Shown: piece by piece, positions 2,859-36,366 of the stretch
Layout of the letters: the number at the start of each line of letters is the position of its first letter
How positions within the stretch are numbered: the stretch's first letter is position 1
Source: a virus
IMG/VR virus record: IMGVR_UViG_3300036846_001606
Location: 1-37,690 of that record
Length of the DNA stretch: 37,690 nt
Direction: 5' to 3' (one strand)
Notes under the pieces: model-generated
The model's database searches: none
Seen by the model: only the letters and a program-made list of their open reading frames with translations
Told to the model about the DNA's origin: nothing
Translations under genes and position numbers: made by a program

Positions 2859-3060
2859 GCGGTCCGATGCCCCGCTCCACACCCCAAGACCCCCGCGAAC
2901 GTTCCAGACGGGCGCCGGATGCGAGTGCGGCCGTGTCCAACATGCTATTCGGCTTCGATAGCCATCGCAATGTCGTGCACCGGGCGGCGCACCGCGCCTC
3001 ATCGGTTGTCGCGGTCGTACCGGTCGTTGCGCATCCGGCGAGGATGGAGGATGCGGGCAA
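2830..3060 (-). pseudogene. o-spanin-like lipobox region (copy 2)
   Basis: Embedded in the 3' end of the inner-spanin gene, this frame reads ASSILAGCATTGTTATT, almost the same as copy 1 (ASSTLAGCATTGTTATT). No ATG or GTG gives it a proper signal peptide. Upstream codons are Pro/Arg-rich, and a TTG at 3058-3060 would leave only about six residues before the lipobox. Downstream of the conserved block the sequence departs from copy 1 and runs on past the methyltransferase start. I read it as a broken outer spanin whose 3' part was replaced when the methyltransferase segment joined. Confidence 0.4.
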
Positions 3061-3418
3061 GCCCGCGGCCTCCGGCGCCCTCGGCGGCCTCCGGCCGGGG
3101 GCCGGAAGCAGGCGCGGGAGCGGTCGGAACCTCGGCGATCTCCCGCTCGGCGTCGGCACGCGCCTGCGCGGCGCGCTTCTCGGCGGTGGCCTCGGCGGCG
3201 TCCCACCTCGCCTTCTCATGGCGGATTCCCTCGATGTAGAGCTTGGGGGCGAGGAAGAGGAAGATGACGCACACGGTCGCGACCGCGGCCGCGATGTGGC
3301 GGGCGCCGGGGAGCGGCAGCCAGAGGAAGACCGCGACCGCACCGATCAGCACGATTCCGGCGAGGCCGAACTGGGCGAAGGCCGACGCCCACAGCGCGGA
3401 GAGGACGAGATGGATCAT
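2999..3418 (-). CDS. i-spanin (Rz-like) lysis protein
   Basis: A 139-residue protein with two N-terminal hydrophobic segments (about 12-35 and 42-59), then a charged Ala/Glu/Arg helix (residues 62-95, GIRHEKARWDAAEAT) and a Pro/Ala-rich tail. The layout fits an inner-membrane spanin, the periplasm-spanning partner of a small lipoprotein, though most have only one TM segment. It follows the holin and lysozyme genes. Its ATG overlaps the stop of a repeat-encoded mini-ORF as ATGA, and AGGAG lies nine bases upstream inside that repeat. A lipoprotein frame overlaps its 3' end, as in other nested spanins, but is damaged. Confidence 0.7.
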   Translation of the reverse strand: MIHLVLSALWASAFAQFGLAGIVLIGAVAVFLWLPLPGARHIAAAVATVCVIFLFLAPKLYIEGIRHEKARWDAAEATAEKRAAQARADAEREIAEVPTAPAPASGPRPEAAEGAGGRGLARILHPRRMRNDRYDRDNR

Positions 3419-3522
3419 CCGTCTACGCTCCTATCGGAGCTACGACGCGACAAGTCGCGCCGGCTTGTCCGCCGCCACCTTCGCGAAGGTGGAAGCGAAC
3501 GGAGTGAGCGAAGGCAGATCAT
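3415..3522 (-). repeat. Coupling repeat R1 with 35-codon ORF (copy A)
   Basis: A REP-like element holding an open frame of 35 codons that ends RRDLSRRSSDRSVDG. Its ATG (3520-3522) overlaps the stop of the preceding R1 copy as ATGA. Its own TGA (3415-3417) overlaps the i-spanin ATG as ATGA. AGGAG sits nine bases before that ATG. The DNA contains short inverted repeats (CTCCTATCGGAG, GCGACAAGTCGC). It is unclear whether the peptide matters or only the act of translation. Confidence 0.7.
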
Positions 3523-3599
3523 CCGTCTACGCTCCTATCGGAGCTGCGACGCGACAAGTCGCGCCGGAGCCGAATGCAAATGAGGCGAAGGCGGATCAT
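3519..3599 (-). repeat. Coupling repeat R1 with 26-codon ORF (copy B)
   Basis: A second R1 unit in direct orientation. Its ATG (3597-3599) overlaps the lysozyme stop as ATGA, and its TGA (3519-3521) overlaps the ATG of copy A. The last 15 codons encode the same peptide end, RRDLSRRSSDRSVDG, while the first part is shorter and different. The lysozyme, copy B, copy A and inner spanin genes thus form one unbroken chain of ATGA overlaps. Confidence 0.7.
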
Positions 3600-4438
3600 G
3601 CCGCGGCCTCCCTGGTCCTGGCGCCGCGCCAGGCCGCGTAGAGCGTCAGCACCACGCTGATGACGGCGATGCCGAGCAGCAGGTACTTGACGATGTGGAT
3701 GGTGTCGGCGAACGGGCCGAGCTGGCTCGCCGCTCCCTCCAGACTTTGGCCGAGCTGATCGGTCACACCGGCGCCGATCACGGTGCCGGTGGTGGTGGCG
3801 GCGCCCGCCTCGGTCGAGAGCGGCGGCCGGGCGGTGTCCTCGGCCTTGGCGCGCGCGCTCGCCGCGGACTTGAGATCGTCCGACAGGCCGCCGCGCGTGG
3901 TCGCCTCGACGCCGGCGCGCGCCATCGCCTTGGCGGCCTTCTCGACATGATCGACCCGCGCGAGCCAGCCGCGGCCGTAGCGCGGGAACTGGGCGAGCGC
4001 GCGATAAAACGCCCGGCGCCGCTCGCAGAAGGCATGGATGGCGCCCTCGGGGTCGGCTTCGCCGAGCTCCTTGACCCTGGCGAGCGTGACGTCGCCCATG
4101 TTGCCGTCGGCGCGAAGCCCGAGCGCGCGCTGCAGCGTGCGCGCGGCCTGCGCCGGGCCGGCATTCACGCAGGCGTCGAAGAACGCATAGTCCATGCCGG
4201 CCGGCAGGCGGTCGCACCACGGCATCCAATAGCGGTCGTGGTAGATCTCGGTGTATTCGGCCGGCGTGATCTTCCACACGTCCTGTTTCGGCAGGCCATG
4301 GCGCATGCGAAAGCCGTCGTATTCGCGCTGGATGATGCCGTGCGCGGTGCGGCCGCCGTGGTCGTGCGGATCGTCGTCGAGCCCGCCCTCGTCGACCAGC
4401 ACCAGGCGCAGCGCATGGGGGAAGGTTTCGGCGACCAT
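3596..4438 (-). CDS. GH108-type endolysin with C-terminal TM anchor
   Basis: A 280-residue phage lysozyme. The N-terminus has the family 108 signature: catalytic Glu17 in VDEGG, followed by DDDPHDHGGRTAHGI (21-35). The GH108 fold extends to about residue 90, with CVNAGPAQAARTLQRA (90-105) opening the peptidoglycan-binding_3 region to about 170. Residues 180-245 are a low-complexity linker, and 250-272 are a TM helix (VKYLLLGIAVISVVLTLYAA). It would cleave host peptidoglycan at lysis. The C-terminal membrane anchor is unusual for a soluble endolysin and may time its release. The start shares one base with the holin stop. An N-terminal duplicate lies at 5538-5582. Confidence 0.9.
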   Translation of the reverse strand: MVAETFPHALRLVLVDEGGLDDDPHDHGGRTAHGIIQREYDGFRMRHGLPKQDVWKITPAEYTEIYHDRYWMPWCDRLPAGMDYAFFDACVNAGPAQAARTLQRALGLRADGNMGDVTLARVKELGEADPEGAIHAFCERRRAFYRALAQFPRYGRGWLARVDHVEKAAKAMARAGVEATTRGGLSDDLKSAASARAKAEDTARPPLSTEAGAATTTGTVIGAGVTDQLGQSLEGAASQLGPFADTIHIVKYLLLGIAVISVVLTLYAAWRGARTREAAA

Positions 4439-4737: not shown

Positions 4738-5616
4738 ATGAGGCGTGAACCGTTTCTTCGTCGTGGCGCTCGTCTGATGCGGCGCCTTGGCGCGCGCTCG
4801 GGCGCGCGGGCGTGCTATTTGCTCGCGTCTGCGACCGTCGGCCCGGGCAGTCCCAAACCGCTGCGTATCCGGGAAACCACTGAACCAATCTGGCTCCGGA
4901 ACGGGACCTCCGATTTCGAGGTCATGGAGGAAATCTTCGTCCACCGCGAATACGACTTCACGGGATGGCCATCACATCACGCGATGGTCGAACGTGCGTA
5001 CGCCGACGCCATCAGCGCCGGCAAAGTGCCGGTCATCCTCGATTGCGGCGCCAACATCGGACTCGCAAGCATCTGGTTCGCACTCAGGTATCCACGTGCG
5101 AGGATCTATGCGATCGAACCGGAGCCGGATAATTTCGCGATGCTTCGCCGCAACGTTGGCGGCTACGCCAACGTCGTGCCGGTCCATGCGGCGATCTCCG
5201 ATCAGGTGACACGGGTGTCGCTCCGCAACCCGCAAGACCAACCTTGGGCCTGCCAAACGGAGGAGGACGAGACGGGGGGCATAGAAACCGTCACAATCCC
5301 GGATCTGTTCGCACGTTTTCCCGATTCCGAGCCACTCATCGTCAAAGTGGACATCGAGGGCCACGAAACGACTCTCTTTCGCTCAAACACGGACTGGGCA
5401 GACGACACCCCGCTCGTCGTATTCGAAATGCATGATTGGCTATTCGCATGGCGCGGGACGGGCGACGCGATTCTGCGCTGCCTTACTCAGCGATCGCGCG
5501 ACTATTTGATACGAGGCGAGCACCTCTTCGCTTTCGCTCATCCCACCAGGCGGAGCGCGCGGGGGAAGGTCTCGGTCACCAATGATGGGTTCCATGGCAG
5601 GTCTTACTCGTGTTAG
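4738..5616 (+). CDS. FkbM family methyltransferase
   Basis: A 292-residue class I methyltransferase. Motif I is VILDCGANIGLASIWFA (99-115), the next strand is IYAIEPEPDNF (123-133), and the FkbM hallmark IVKVDIEGHE lies at 201-210. FkbM enzymes O-methylate sugars or polyketides, and bacterial members often modify surface polysaccharide. ATG 4738 is used; ATG 4783 is a possible later start. The gene is on the plus strand, against the flow of the phage operon. Its last about 30 codons run over a decayed copy of the lysozyme 5' end (5538-5582), so the natural C-terminus may have been replaced at the junction. This is probably cargo that alters host surface glycans. Confidence 0.85.
   Translation: MRREPFLRRGARLMRRLGARSGARACYLLASATVGPGSPKPLRIRETTEPIWLRNGTSDFEVMEEIFVHREYDFTGWPSHHAMVERAYADAISAGKVPVILDCGANIGLASIWFALRYPRARIYAIEPEPDNFAMLRRNVGGYANVVPVHAAISDQVTRVSLRNPQDQPWACQTEEDETGGIETVTIPDLFARFPDSEPLIVKVDIEGHETTLFRSNTDWADDTPLVVFEMHDWLFAWRGTGDAILRCLTQRSRDYLIRGEHLFAFAHPTRRSARGKVSVTNDGFHGRSYSC
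5538..5582 (-). pseudogene. Lysozyme 5'-end fragment
   Basis: Read on the minus strand, codons from 5579 give VTETFPRALRLV and then a stop. The intact lysozyme begins MVAETFPHALRLVLVDEGG. The match covers only the first 12 or so codons and the would-be ATG is now TTG. The fragment overlaps the 3' end of the FkbM gene on the other strand. It marks where an older lysozyme gene was cut, with the FkbM, holin and complete lysozyme segment now lying beyond the break. Confidence 0.6.
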
Positions 5617-5881: not shown

Positions 5882-6848
5882 ATGGCAACACCATCGACGG
5901 CGGCAAGATGGGCAGCGCCGTTCCACTGCCGCCAAGTGGCGTGCTAGCGGTGATTCCGGTGGTGCTGGTCTGCGTGGTCACCGGATGACTGTTTGAATCG
6001 GCAACCGTGGTTCCGAAAATTCCGGAGCCGGCGATGCCGCCGTTTACAGTATGCGAGTGTCCAGGGTCGGCGATGTTCGTCGTCAGGGTAACATTCGGCA
6101 GATTCGCTTGCGCGATCGTCTTGTTCTGCGTACCCCCGTTCCCGCCCAACACCGTGCCGTCATAGTTGCCGCCCGCCACCGTGATCCTGCTCGCCGCCGC
6201 CCCGCCCATGTTGTCCAGTCCGAAGATCGCCCGCCCTCTCAAATCCGGTAGGTTGAACGTGGTCGAGCCGTCACCGACGCCGAAGGTGGTGGAGATCAGG
6301 GAGAACAGCACTGAATAGGTCGTGCGCGAGATCGCCTGCCCTGATGGAAGCGCGAAATTACTGTTCGGCGCGCTCGATCCGACATAGGGCAGGATCGCTC
6401 CCACCGGGATCACATACGGCAGCGGCATGAAGCCCCGGAGGTAGAACGCCGCGTCGCTGTTGTTGTAGACCGCAATGTACGGCGTGCCCTGGATCAGCAT
6501 GCCCGACTGCAACTCGACCCCGGGCGACGTGCGCAGCGGCCTGGCACCGAGGCCGTCCACGTTGACCGCCACAGTGGCGCCGCAGCTCGTGTGCGGCACG
6601 AACGCGATCATCGCGCCGTTGAGGTGCGCGAGCGTGTCGAAACCCTGGTTCGAGGTCACCGTATAGGCGGTCGAGGTACCGCCGGTGATGATCGTGCCGG
6701 AGACGTCGTCGCGCCATTCCGCGGCGCGCGCCATCATGGCGCGCGCCGAATCGTTCACCGACGAGGGACTCTGCCCCTCGGCCCAGTTGATCGTGCTGTC
6801 GGCCGTCGCGTTCGACGCGGCCGTCTTCGACCAGCTCCAGAATGCCAT
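5862..6848 (-). CDS. Phage tail fibre with collar domain
   Basis: A 328-residue fibre. Residues 1-48 are a conserved virion-attachment-type N-terminus (MAFWSWSKTAASNATADS). The middle (50-140) is beta-rich. Residues 148-213 are a phage tail collar domain (VGAILPYVGSS, then FGVGDGSTTFNLPDLRGRA). The Gly/Ser/Thr-rich C-terminus includes DPGHSHTVNGG and ends LPFILRVI, both common in short tail fibres. It is the likely receptor-binding protein. The start is fixed by the duplicate at 8312-8476, which keeps the same first codons. It lies on the minus strand, convergent with the plus-strand 84-residue ORF and divergent from the acyltransferase. Confidence 0.88.
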   Translation of the reverse strand: MAFWSWSKTAASNATADSTINWAEGQSPSSVNDSARAMMARAAEWRDDVSGTIITGGTSTAYTVTSNQGFDTLAHLNGAMIAFVPHTSCGATVAVNVDGLGARPLRTSPGVELQSGMLIQGTPYIAVYNNSDAAFYLRGFMPLPYVIPVGAILPYVGSSAPNSNFALPSGQAISRTTYSVLFSLISTTFGVGDGSTTFNLPDLRGRAIFGLDNMGGAAASRITVAGGNYDGTVLGGNGGTQNKTIAQANLPNVTLTTNIADPGHSHTVNGGIAGSGIFGTTVADSNSHPVTTQTSTTGITASTPLGGSGTALPILPPSMVLPFILRVI

Positions 6849-7130
6849 GATGGTCCTCGCGAGTGAGAGTGAAGCTTCGACTTCTGCTGGATGGCGCATC
6901 TCCTGCGGAATGCAGGATCCGACGCGATCGAGGAATATCCGCACGAACCGCACTTCACTCCGGGGTTCGCGGATGCGTCGCTTGCCAAGCCTTTCGCGGA
7001 ATTCATTTCGCTCAACGTGAAAGCGAAGAAACCGAACCCCGCCGGTTGGCGACACGGCTCCCGACGCGAGGAAACGAGGCTCGATGCGCCGCGGCATTTA
7101 TGCTTAGATCGCACCGAGGATGGGGGACCG

Positions 7131-8311: not shown

Positions 8312-8476
8312 TCAGGTCGTCCCCTGATTGCCCGCGTCGCGCCATTCCGCCGCGCGCGCCATCATGGCGCGCGCCGAATCGTTCACCGACGAGGGACTCT
8401 GCCCCTCGGCCCAGTTGATCGTGCTGTCGGCCGTCGCGTTCGACGCGGCCGTCTTCGACCAGTTCCAGAATGCCAT
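8312..8476 (-). pseudogene. Fibre gene 5'-end fragment (54 codons)
   Basis: This begins MAFWNWSKTAASNATADS and matches the complete fibre over its first 46-47 residues with one substitution (Asn for Ser at residue 5). It then diverges after EWRD to a short tail and a stop. It lies directly after the 219-residue gene, where the fibre would be expected in the ancestral order. It is either a truncated remnant or a short expressed decoy peptide; I favour a remnant. Confidence 0.75.
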
Positions 8477-8523
8477 GATGGTCCTCGTCAGTCGGATCGG
8501 CGAAAAGCGTGGCGCGTGCGGGT

Positions 8524-10574: not shown

Positions 10575-10646
10575 GGCAGGTCCGTAGGGTGCGCAAAGAC
10601 GTGGATGCCCGCATGCGCGGGCATGACGATGACGACGCGCCGTCAC
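10575..10646 (-). repeat. REP element read in frame into the GNAT gene
   Basis: It contains the palindrome GCCCGCATGCGCGGGC and the adjoining motif seen at 18912-18948, 11070-11100 and 30461-30548. The stretch is open from GTG 10644-10646, which overlaps the stop of the 104-residue gene as GTGA, and continues without a stop into the GNAT-like coding frame. Confidence 0.55.
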
Positions 10647-10957
10647 CCGAGGCAGACGTAGCCGAAGGTGCGGTCGTTCTGCGCGTTGCTGGCGTGCGCG
10701 AGCGTGAACGCGCCGTTGGCGACGGCGCTCACCCAGATGGTGCCGTTGCCGAGCTCGGCCGCCGCATGCGCGGTGAGCGGCGAGAGCAGCACCACGCTGC
10801 CGGCGCCGCAGTTCTTCGCCGCCACGATCGTGCTGGCGGCGCTGACCGCGAGCGTCACGGTGCCGACCGCGTTGGAGCGGCCCTTGGCGAGCTCGTTGAT
10901 CGCGGTGTTGACGCGGCGCGGGTCTTTCTCGTCGCGGGCGAGGACGAGCGCGCTCAT
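10643..10957 (-). CDS. Conserved phage virion-type protein (104 aa)
   Basis: A 104-residue protein with the opening RRVNTAINELAKGRSNAVGT, then alternating strands (TVTLAVSAASTIV, SVVLLSPLTAHAAAEL) and an ending HASNAQNDRTFGYVCLG. I recall this pattern from many tailed-phage genomes, next to gp10-like or tail-needle genes, with no assigned function. The beta-rich makeup suggests a surface or trimeric spike-like component. The ATG has GGAG nine bases upstream, within a partial R1 repeat end. The ORF encoded by the upstream repeat stops four bases before the ATG. Confidence 0.75.
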   Translation of the reverse strand: MSALVLARDEKDPRRVNTAINELAKGRSNAVGTVTLAVSAASTIVAAKNCGAGSVVLLSPLTAHAAAELGNGTIWVSAVANGAFTLAHASNAQNDRTFGYVCLG

Positions 10958-10961
10958 CCGT

Positions 10962-11111
10962 CTACGCTCCGCTGTTCGCCGTCATGGCCGGGCATAGCCG
11001 TTCGAAGAACGGCGTCGCTTCGCTTCGCCTATGCCCGGCCATCCACGCCTTGCTGTGTTGCAAAGACGTGGATGCCCGCCTTCGCGGGCATGACGGAGCC
11101 GAGACAGTCAT
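10962..11111 (-). repeat. Composite REP element with 49-codon coupling ORF
   Basis: The intergenic space between the gp10-like and 104-residue genes is filled by palindromic repeats (motifs GCCGTTCGAAGAACGGC and GCCCGCCTTCGCGGGC). On the minus strand the frame is open from ATG 11109-11111, overlapping the gp10-like stop as ATGA, to TAG 10962-10964, four bases before the next ATG. The left end carries the last bases of an R1 unit. Confidence 0.65.
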
Positions 11112-16290: not shown

Positions 16291-16464
16291 TCAACCTTGC
16301 GCGGCGCAGCTCCGCCTCATGGTGAGGAGCGCGACGCAGTCGCGCGTCTCGAACCATGAGGTCGGCCGATGTGGCGCCGCTTGTATGCGCGGCCGATCCT
16401 TCGCGACGCGCTCGCTTCGCGAGCGCTCCCCAGGATGAGGCGGAGCGAGCCGGGCAGGTCTCAT
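16291..16464 (-). repeat. REP element with 57-codon coupling ORF
   Basis: The gap between the 96-residue gene and the adaptor is a palindromic dispersed repeat: GCCTCATGGTGAGGAGC and CTCGCTTCGCGAGCG motifs, and a CTCATGG/CCATGAG pair. The minus-strand frame is open from ATG 16462-16464, overlapping the previous stop as ATGA, to TGA 16291-16293, four bases before the adaptor ATG. Confidence 0.65.
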
Positions 16465-16751
16465 CGATCCACCCGCAGATGCCGCCAGTCGGGATCGTCG
16501 AGCTTGCGCCGGATGTACTTGCCCCACTCCTCGCTCGACATGCCGAGCGGGTTGACGCCGTCCTCGTTCATCCAGCGCACCAGGATGACGTTCGGAATGC
16601 TGGCGATGTGCCGGCCCCAGTCGCTCCTCTGCGGCGCGGCGCGAAGCCGCGCATTGCGCGCGAGGATCGGCGCGACGTCCTGCACGTGCTCGAGGGTGAA
16701 GTGGTCGCCGTCGGAGTCGAGATGGATGCGGGCGACGAGATCGCCCGTCAT
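16461..16751 (-). CDS. Conserved small phage protein (96 aa)
   Basis: A 96-residue protein with the opening DLVARIHLDSDGDHFTLEHV, WGRHIASIPNVILVRWMNED in the middle and a C-terminal EEWGKYIRRKLDDPDWRHLR. I recognise this as a recurring neighbour of adaptor genes in alphaproteobacterial phages, without known function. It has no TM or signal and is probably a small virion or assembly protein. The ATG shares one base with the stop of an R1 repeat ORF (TGATG), and the repeat provides AGGAG nine bases upstream. Its own stop overlaps the next repeat ORF. Confidence 0.7.
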   Translation of the reverse strand: MTGDLVARIHLDSDGDHFTLEHVQDVAPILARNARLRAAPQRSDWGRHIASIPNVILVRWMNEDGVNPLGMSSEEWGKYIRRKLDDPDWRHLRVDR

Positions 16752-16828
16752 CAGCCTACGCTCCTATCGGAGCTACGGCTCGACAAGCCGCGCCGTAGCG
16801 AACGGAGTGAGTGAAGGCGGGTCACCAT
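16751..16828 (-). repeat. Coupling repeat R1 with 24-codon ORF (copy C)
   Basis: A third R1 copy, diverged. GTG 16823-16825 overlaps the stop of the 165-residue gene as GTGA; an ATG one codon earlier is also possible. The frame encodes a peptide ending SSRSSDRSVG, and its TGA (16751-16753) shares one base with the next ATG. AGGAG is nine bases before that ATG. The inverted repeat CTCCTATCGGAG is kept. Confidence 0.7.
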
Positions 16829-17319
16829 TGGCCGACGTCTTCCAGCGTGAGCGTGAAGGTCTCGTTGGCCGCCGGCGTGTAGGCGGCGCGCGCCTCGATC
16901 AGCGCGAAGATGCTGCCGCTCGCGAGCCGGAGGAACATCTCCGAGCCGGCCGTCGCCGAGCCGGTGCCGGTGCAGCCGTCGGTGAAGGCGAGCATCGACG
17001 TCACGTCGATGTTGCCGAGCCAGTTCGCCGCATGGTCGGTCGACCAGGCGCCGTTGTCGCCGTTCTGCGGCGTCGGCGCCGCCTCGTAGAGATGAATGCG
17101 GAAGCTGGCATTGGTCGGCGAGGTGCCGGACTTGGTGAGCCGGGCGCGGGTGATGCGGGTGATACCGTGGCCGACCGCCGCGATGTTGCCGAGGTCGATC
17201 TGCAGCGGCATGACGGAGCCGGCGGCGGTGGAGTTGGCGACGAGGTCGCCCGCCGCGTAGGCGGTCGTGTCGTTCGGCCGTGCGAAGCCGGCCGAGAGAT
17301 TGTTGATCTGGAACGGCAT
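16822..17319 (-). CDS. Putative virion beta protein (165 aa)
   Basis: A 165-residue protein, opening PFQINNLSAGFARPNDTTAY and followed by YAAGDLVANSTAAGSVMPLQ (20-39), strand-rich segments (GITRITRARLTKSG; ASFRIHLYEAAPTPQNGD) and an ending ANETFTLTLEDVGQW. There are no cysteines outside one near the C-terminal third. This beta-sandwich-like layout is common among phage head-decoration or capsid-associated proteins, and it follows the capsid gene. It is separated from the 119-residue gene by nine bases. Function is inferred from position only. Confidence 0.7.
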   Translation of the reverse strand: MPFQINNLSAGFARPNDTTAYAAGDLVANSTAAGSVMPLQIDLGNIAAVGHGITRITRARLTKSGTSPTNASFRIHLYEAAPTPQNGDNGAWSTDHAANWLGNIDVTSMLAFTDGCTGTGSATAGSEMFLRLASGSIFALIEARAAYTPAANETFTLTLEDVGQW

Positions 17320-18907: not shown

Positions 18908-18960
18908 CACCGTCATGCCCGCGCATGCGGGCATCCACGTCTTTGCCGCTGGCCCAAGAC
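18908..18960. repeat. REP palindrome upstream of capsid gene
   Basis: GTCATGCCCGCGCATGCGGGC is followed by ATCCACGTCTTTG, the same family as at 10575-10646, 11065-11105 and 30461-30548. The capsid reading frame is open upstream through it to ATG 18934, but the start at 18877 is preferred. Confidence 0.6.
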
Positions 18961-18975
18961 ATGGATGGCCGGGAC

Positions 18976-19086
18976 ATAGGCGCGCGAAGCGACGCCGTTC
19001 TTACGAACGGCTATAGGCGCGCGAAGCGACGCCGTTCTTACGAACGGCTATAGGCGCGCGAAGCGACGCCGTTCTTACGAACGGCT
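18976..19086. repeat. Three 37-bp tandem repeats
   Basis: Units start at 18976, 19013 and 19050. Each has AGGCGCGCGAAGCGACG and then the small palindrome CCGTTCTTACGAACGG, and the units look identical by eye. They sit between the scaffold stop and the capsid start. A single related unit, with TTCGAAGAACGG, is at 11001-11031. The unit length is not a multiple of three, so unlike R1 the array cannot keep one reading frame. Confidence 0.8.
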
Positions 19087-19118
19087 ATGCCCGGCCATGA
19101 CGGCGTCGGTGCGTGTGC

Positions 19119-25904: not shown

Positions 25905-26106
25905 GCGGCTCCTGCGTCCTCTCCCCCGCTCGCCGGGGAGAGACAGAGAGGGGGGCGCCGCTTGCGCATGAGCAAGTGGCTTCCCCCCTCCCGCCTCCCC
26001 CGCAAGCGGGAGAGGGGCGAAAGGCATCAGAAAGACTGCTTTGAAAGAGAAGAGTCGCGGCGGCGCTTCAGTCGCACAAATCCGGGACCAGGATTTCTGC
26101 CATCGG
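25905..26106. repeat. Dispersed repeat R3 plus R4, left copy
   Basis: An R3-type segment (25905-26035) is followed by a block with GCGGCGCTTCAGTCGCACAA and CCAGGATTTCTGCCATCG (26041-26106). The same two-part block is at about 36190-36366 in the same orientation. The 25825-26303 gap holds this repeat and the PKD-gene terminator; I find no gene. Confidence 0.7.
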
Positions 26107-36189: not shown

Positions 36190-36366
36190 CCGCGGCGGGG
36201 AGAGACGGAGAGCGGGCGCCGCCGGCGCGCGGGCGCGCGGCTTCCCCTCCCCGTCCTCCCCCGCAAGCGGAGAAGCGACGTGAGGCATCAGCGAGATTGT
36301 TTTTGAAGAGGCTCGCCCCGGCGGCGCTTCAATCGCACAAAACCGAGACTAGGATTTCAGCCATCG
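36190..36366. repeat. Dispersed repeat R3 plus R4, right copy
   Basis: Direct repeat of 25905-26106. The R4 part (36301-36366) has GCGGCGCTTCAATCGCACAA and CTAGGATTTCAGCCATCG, about 80% identical to 26041-26106. It lies upstream of the replication operon. The 36045-36562 gap has this repeat, probably a promoter for the DnaA-like gene, and no gene that I can support. Confidence 0.7.

Follow-up and report, generated by a model that had tools for sequence, protein, structure and literature searches.

The palindrome R1, found in a phage genome between a 165-aa and a 96-aa gene, is probably a REP-like palindrome which entered the genomes of phages of Bradyrhizobium-like hosts by insertion at gene starts and has been kept there as a self-contained stop/restart cassette. 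The window, by which we mean the whole stretch of 37,690 nucleotides that was analysed, is an IMG/VR virus record whose nearest named relative is Bradyrhizobium phage ppBeUSDA76-2. A sequence-only reading of this DNA had placed a diverged R1 copy at the 165/96-aa junction, with GTGA over the upstream stop, TGATG at the next start and AGGAG nine bases ahead of the ATG. All of these were found on the minus strand, and the copy, here called Wa, agrees with the copies in the lysis operon at 84% over 51 nt (family D6). Its parts and neighbours are as follows.

16751..16824, minus strand: R1 insertion Wa, a palindrome of about 70-74 bp separating the 165-aa and 96-aa phage genes
16824-16822, minus strand: left stop TGA; 16824-16821, apparent left target copy TGAC; 16820-16751, 70-bp core
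16822..17319, minus strand: upstream 165-aa phage gene, complete up to its end
16461..16751, minus strand: downstream 96-aa gene (phrog_3982), its start now apparently the ATG brought by the insert
16761..16765, minus strand: AGGAG Shine-Dalgarno (SD) carried by Wa, exactly 9 nt 5' of the ATG
16760..16773, minus strand: SD hairpin GCTCC-GATA-GGAGC, with a stem that is invariant across R1 copies and a variable loop
16772..16799, minus strand: inner palindrome GCTACGGC...GCCGTAGC
16751..16828, minus strand: mini-ORF of 25 codons plus stop (ATG...TGA), running from the old start by the upstream stop to the new start

At the left edge, GTGA (16825-16822) contains the TGA (16824-16822) that ends the 165-aa ORF, and at the right edge TGATG (16753-16749) contains the start ATG (16751-16749) of the 96-aa ORF, both on the minus strand.

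Empty sites in related phages

The nearest relatives of the 165/96-aa pair, L018 and L011, have an empty ATGGTGACGG site at this junction. They read CAATGGTGACGGAC, where the window has CAATGGTGAC[CCGCC...GGCTGA]TGACGGGC, and both genes otherwise align; the 165-aa protein is 85% identical to L011/L012 across residues 1-164. Phage L078 has two R1 copies, one of them at the 96-aa junction as in the window, and L082, which is 88-95% identical to L078 at the nucleotide level in aligned blocks, has neither. L022 shows an empty ATGACG junction where the window has R1 before a 104-aa gene. Since near relatives retain empty sites and tandem copies repeat the start codon, R1 at the 165/96-aa junction is, judged from these alignments, an insertion.

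Compared with the empty sites, the target duplication is TGAC at Wa and ATGACC at L078a; none is clean at L078b, which, set against L082, split a TGATG overlap. A strict 4-bp duplication of the form TGNY was dropped after this last comparison. Most R1 copies have terminal inverted repeats of the kind that characterizes MITEs (CCGCCTTCGC ... GCGTAGRCGG, with mismatches), and neither a mobility gene nor active transposition was detected for R1. Between L078 and L082, differing host-type repeats also occupy several gene gaps (L078 3057-3248, 4251-4552 and 5173-5296); at about 5173-5296 the L078 repeat ends GAGGAGCATAGGATG at a start, and L082 has a short TGACATCATG junction there.

The best precedent for a phage-borne repeat at start codons is the SAS of Cluster K mycobacteriophages, a 13-bp element with an AGGAG core (GGGATAGGAGCCC) located 3-7 bp ahead of the ATG of non-structural genes, mostly in a single orientation and with almost none in the host; inverted repeats precede about half of them, and no insertion is reported for them (PMC3203893). 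R1 resembles SAS as an AGGAG repeat carried by phages just 5' of an ATG and in one orientation. It differs in being about 70-105 bp long, in including the upstream stop side, in its 9-nt spacing after AGGAG, in its association with structural and lysis genes and in having empty sites; its core is CCGATAGGAGCG and its host group is another one. R1 might nevertheless be a phage-specific start signal of the SAS/ESAS kind, bound by a phage or host factor and spread by recombination or point mutation rather than as a mobile insert. We consider this improbable: the position, the single orientation and the absence from sampled hosts would suit such a signal, and ESAS have inverted repeats too (PMC3203893), but the clean empty sites and the tandem copies with a repeated start codon mark insertion. 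In addition, most of about 60 relatives of the 96-aa junction are without R1 (in many the genes overlap directly by TGATG or ATGA), so R1 is not bound to chosen genes.

A common geometry across phages

The R1 core GCTCCGATAGGAGCGTAGAC occurs three times in the window, where none is expected (100 shuffles). The window holds three full copies and one partial copy, with two of the full copies (Wb and Wc) in tandem in the lysis operon.

3596..4438, minus strand: endolysin gene upstream of Wb (PF05838, PF09374)
3522..3598, minus strand: R1 copy Wb, following the endolysin gene with an ATGA overlap, right end at ATG 3522-3520
3418..3521, minus strand: R1 copy Wc, the tandem partner of Wb, bearing an additional internal palindrome, right end at ATG 3418-3416
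2999..3418, minus strand: 139-aa gene downstream of Wc
10957..10971, minus strand: partial R1 before the 104-aa gene, the right end alone kept (CGGAGCGTAGACGG plus the A of ATG)

At the 10957 junction other repeats have replaced the remainder of R1, and the SD-start end alone is kept.

Several other repeats are also present in the window. The family CGTCATGCCCGC...GCGGGCATCCACGTCTTTGC, at or near gene ends at 10593-10631, 11060-11096 and 18908-18946, probably belongs to the CGTC-type host REPs. A 37-bp unit, ATAGGCGCGCGAAGCGACGCCGTTCTTACGAACGGCT, is repeated three times in perfect tandem at 18976-19088, just upstream of a 727-aa minus-strand ORF. Direct repeats lie at 6707-6864 and 8335-8492 (158 bp, 97% identity, 1628 bp spacing), at 25953-26105 and 36214-36366 (153 bp, 76%) and at 1483-1604 and 2973-3094 (122 bp, 80%).

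Cassettes of a common geometry were found twelve times in seven phage or prophage records, namely the window and six others. Their number is small, and descent connects some of them: L078/L080 belong together, and the junction at window 10957 is also that of L108 and L109. Ten were tabulated (Wa, Wb, Wc, L108a, L108b, L109, L078a, L078b, L036 and L087). Every one of the ten has an ATG or GTG start codon at the left edge, which directly overlaps a TGA in seven; L108b lies in tandem behind L108a, and in L036 and L087 the upstream stop comes a few nucleotides earlier. The right edge is an ATG with an open frame in all ten, and for Wb and L108a that frame is the next tandem mini-ORF. Nine of them place AGGAG, and L078b places GAGG, 9 nt from this ATG, which brings the full set to 11 cassettes with AGGAG and one with GAGG, each followed by 9 nt and ATG. 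R1 is oriented like the genes in 12 of 12 cassettes, and its sites include both structural and lysis genes. L087 comes from a bacterial genome but is flanked by phage tail genes.

The two cassettes outside the table are in another phage, L364 (IMGVR_UViG_3300036785_000433), on the minus strand at 3747-3810 and 3417-3481. They occupy consecutive gene junctions in the capsid region and have differing palindrome arms (CCTTCTACGCC... and TCCTGCTTC...), followed by AGGAG, 9 nt and ATG. An ATG was part of the pattern in some of our searches; the window search, one regex search, the core model and the SD-hairpin scan used none. The core model, built without either start codon and run on 527 kb of phage sequence, recovered the known R1 copies and gave no further strong match, and scanning IMG/VR for the SD hairpin brought up the cassettes already known plus the new one in L364, with the ATG always in one register. 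L363, L365 and L367, which also matched in that scan, are not such cassettes. Another repeat family in these phages has no fixed register to starts. It had been argued from the sequence that recurrence at an unrelated gene pair spoke against chance in the lysis operon; this holds, and is strengthened by the recurrence of the same start/stop geometry at unrelated gene pairs in other phages.

Palindrome, hairpin and mini-ORF

The GCTCC-N4-GGAGC stem is unchanged in the R1 copies while its loop changes, and in the predicted Wa hairpin GGAG pairs with GCTCC. The inner stem stays paired through substitutions, A-T to T-A among them: 87 of 110 cells are paired against 80.4 in shuffles, a value reached by 6 of 2000 shuffles. 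Folding z-scores are modest (Wa -1.4, Wb -1.1), and no Rfam family matched in the window at the gathering score. A GTAG tag lies beside the stem (CCGTAGCTCC...GGAGCGTAG) in most copies. The bare hairpin CTTCGTAGCTCCGATAGGAGCGAAG also occurs in the distant phyla of L005 and L008 (Candidatus Harrisonbacteria and Candidatus Yanofskybacteria), where it does not precede a start codon.

The Wa mini-ORF (ATGGTGACC...GGCTGA, peptide MVTRLHSLRSLRRGLSSRSSDRSVG*) coincides with the span originally drawn around the repeat. The mini-ORF is open in all twelve cassettes and closes at most 7 nt from the new start in eleven, either by a TAG or TAG/TAA-type stop past the SD hairpin or by a TGA overlapping the new ATG; in the twelfth it closes 23 nt ahead of the new start. 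It could therefore be a regulatory leader whose peptide, or the act of translating it, controls the downstream gene by attenuation or peptide sensing, with the frame under selection. This open frame and the SSxRSxG shared by same-frame copies are what such a leader would leave, but we hold it to be very improbable, given that the frame varies by copy, that third-position change is not in excess and that the shared residues fall over the hairpin and SD. Five copies have a left-ATG-to-new-ATG distance of 1 modulo 3, and most others one of 2 modulo 3; the peptides differ accordingly, and L108a, L036, L087 and both L364 copies use another frame than the SSDRSVG copies. Variable columns number 2 of 14, 5 of 15 and 3 of 14 at codon positions 1, 2 and 3, respectively. 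The peptide end SSDRSVG, earlier described as partly conserved, is indeed common to same-frame copies, yet it is shared because the hairpin and Shine-Dalgarno nucleotides are shared. A conserved mini-ORF peptide was accordingly dropped as a candidate. The suggestion that either RNA shape or frame is under selection survives in its first half, in that the palindrome and ribosome site are preserved, and fails in its second, as the copies give no support for a constraint on the frame. Across the aligned copies, then, R1 conserves its palindrome, its Shine-Dalgarno hairpin and its ATG, and the mini-ORF is not a conserved peptide.

Host chromosomes and known repeat families

The sequence-only reading had proposed to align R1 copies from Rhizobiales genomes. 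Our host sample was 296 genomes drawn from the GTDB family, which we take to be Xanthobacteraceae, of a genome identified as Bradyrhizobium through its 100% match to a 16S V4 sequence. AGGAG-bearing R1 was not found on these chromosomes: its end gave six scattered matches, fewer than the reversed-pattern control. Some of the 296 genomes hold several copies of a looser palindrome, CCGCCTTCGC...GCGNAGNCGG, with up to 30 pattern matches per genome. About 60 of these host palindromes were fetched; they lie within other repeats or between genes, and none was at a start/stop junction. Their similarity to the R1 core is weak (E about 1e-3) and suggests that R1 is a relative of a host palindrome family. 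Some of the chromosomal palindromes (L299-L342, from genomes G626, G612, G579, G588, G596, G532, G638, G632, G604 and G453) are nested in the loops of other REPs, e.g. ATTGCTTCGCTT[...]GTCGCTCGCAATGA, a habit of inserting repeat into repeat.

Wider searches gave little more. Scans of viral and genome contigs with exact R1 18-mers returned non-R1 matches alone (e.g. L004 and L010) and no donor genome, a plasmid search for R1 matched nothing relevant, and a general palindrome pattern in viral contigs found chiefly other repeat families or coding matches. An even sampling across Alphaproteobacteria yielded one clear bacterial R1 copy, that in prophage L087. Among the phages and the 296 host genomes sampled, the SD-bearing, start-registered form of R1 was seen in phages only; the true host of the window's phage may carry it.

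These host palindromes raise the possibility of a survival filter. Ordinary host REP palindromes would land anywhere, and those that survive would sit at junctions where they happen to bring an SD and leave the genes intact; neither adaptation to phages nor any function other than neutrality would be involved. We regard this as quite possible, if somewhat short of probable. Related palindromes do exist in host chromosomes, an SD-like 4-mer is near one end in 24 of 62 of them, other repeat families fill several L078 and L082 gene gaps, and L364 combines different arms with the common geometry, as convergence would. With phage genes tightly packed, surviving inserts must in any case sit at junctions, which accounts for part of the bias. 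AGGAG exactly 9 nt from the ATG in 11 of 12 cassettes is, however, tighter than a filter requires, the other repeat family in these phages lacks a fixed register, and the R1 end is missing from the sampled hosts.

REP/GTAG palindromes are short, carry GTAG, have G-U tolerant stems and lie near gene ends; the TAG supplies stops to flanking ORFs, and families are known in Bradyrhizobium and Rhodopseudomonas (Di Nocera et al. 2013, PMC3733652). REPs are mostly intergenic and near 3' ends, at a variable distance from the downstream ORF (PMC3733652). R1, likened to this family by description and not by consensus, is alike in kind as a short GTAG palindrome, and differs in its fixed register to the downstream start, its AGGAG and its occurrence in phages only. 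High chromosomal copy number, which defines REPs, was not seen in the 296 Xanthobacteraceae genomes; we call R1 REP-like rather than a REP because its AGGAG-bearing form is absent from them. Br-REP1 and Br-REP2 of Bradyrhizobium japonicum are palindromic, co-transcribed with neighbouring genes and located in 3'-UTRs (PMC5082802). They resemble R1 as palindromic repeats of the likely host group, although the Br-REP1 consensus CCGGAATCTCGAGATTCCGG is unrelated to R1 in sequence (PMC5082802). RPE of Rickettsia and RU/ERIC of enterobacteria are small mobile palindromes whose presence at or within genes does not destroy the protein (PMC3733652, PMC2759123). RPE and RU add residues to proteins, whereas R1 changes neither flanking protein. 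What is new in R1 is the fixed start-codon register together with the empty sites, and the part of the literature covered yielded no description of a repeat held in fixed register with a start codon that is rebuilt.

Discussion

Start-stop overlaps of the ATGA or TGATG type place termination beside the next start and allow translational coupling. Most R1 copies recreate such an overlap at their right edge, with the difference that an insert now parts the two genes. In our proposed explanation, the left edge would hold the upstream gene's own stop together with the original start codon of the downstream gene, from which a meaningless mini-ORF would read into the insert. The right edge would provide AGGAG and, after the 9-nt spacer, an ATG that opens the downstream reading frame, so that the AGGAG of the insert would drive initiation at that ATG, which we infer to be the start actually used. 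Both flanking frames are intact, and from the alignments both proteins appear undamaged.

With GGAG paired in the predicted RNA, downstream initiation may require ribosomes that arrive by way of the mini-ORF, although this burial of the SD was computed without a convincing model of unfolding by the ribosome. The coupling of the gene pair would thereby survive the insertion, a speculative step. R1 could go further and be a phage-adapted mobile palindrome whose end structure repairs its own insertion at a start codon: the start/stop overlap would be duplicated or split, the stop staying on the left and a full SD-plus-ATG being rebuilt on the right, and the element would spread unseen by both proteins with translation still coupled. 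We regard this stronger version as rather doubtful.

The space between phage genes is nearly nil, so the persistence of repeats there is a real question. If the stop/restart reading is true, a repeat that itself supplies stop context, ribosome site and start would ride along neutrally at the sole available type of site, and this would constitute a simple entry route for mobile DNA into operons. R1 is also a testable system for asking whether the translational coupling of neighbouring genes is maintained by a hairpin-buried SD beside a tiny ORF. Moreover, mini-ORFs at such junctions can arise as by-products of insertion rather than as peptide genes.
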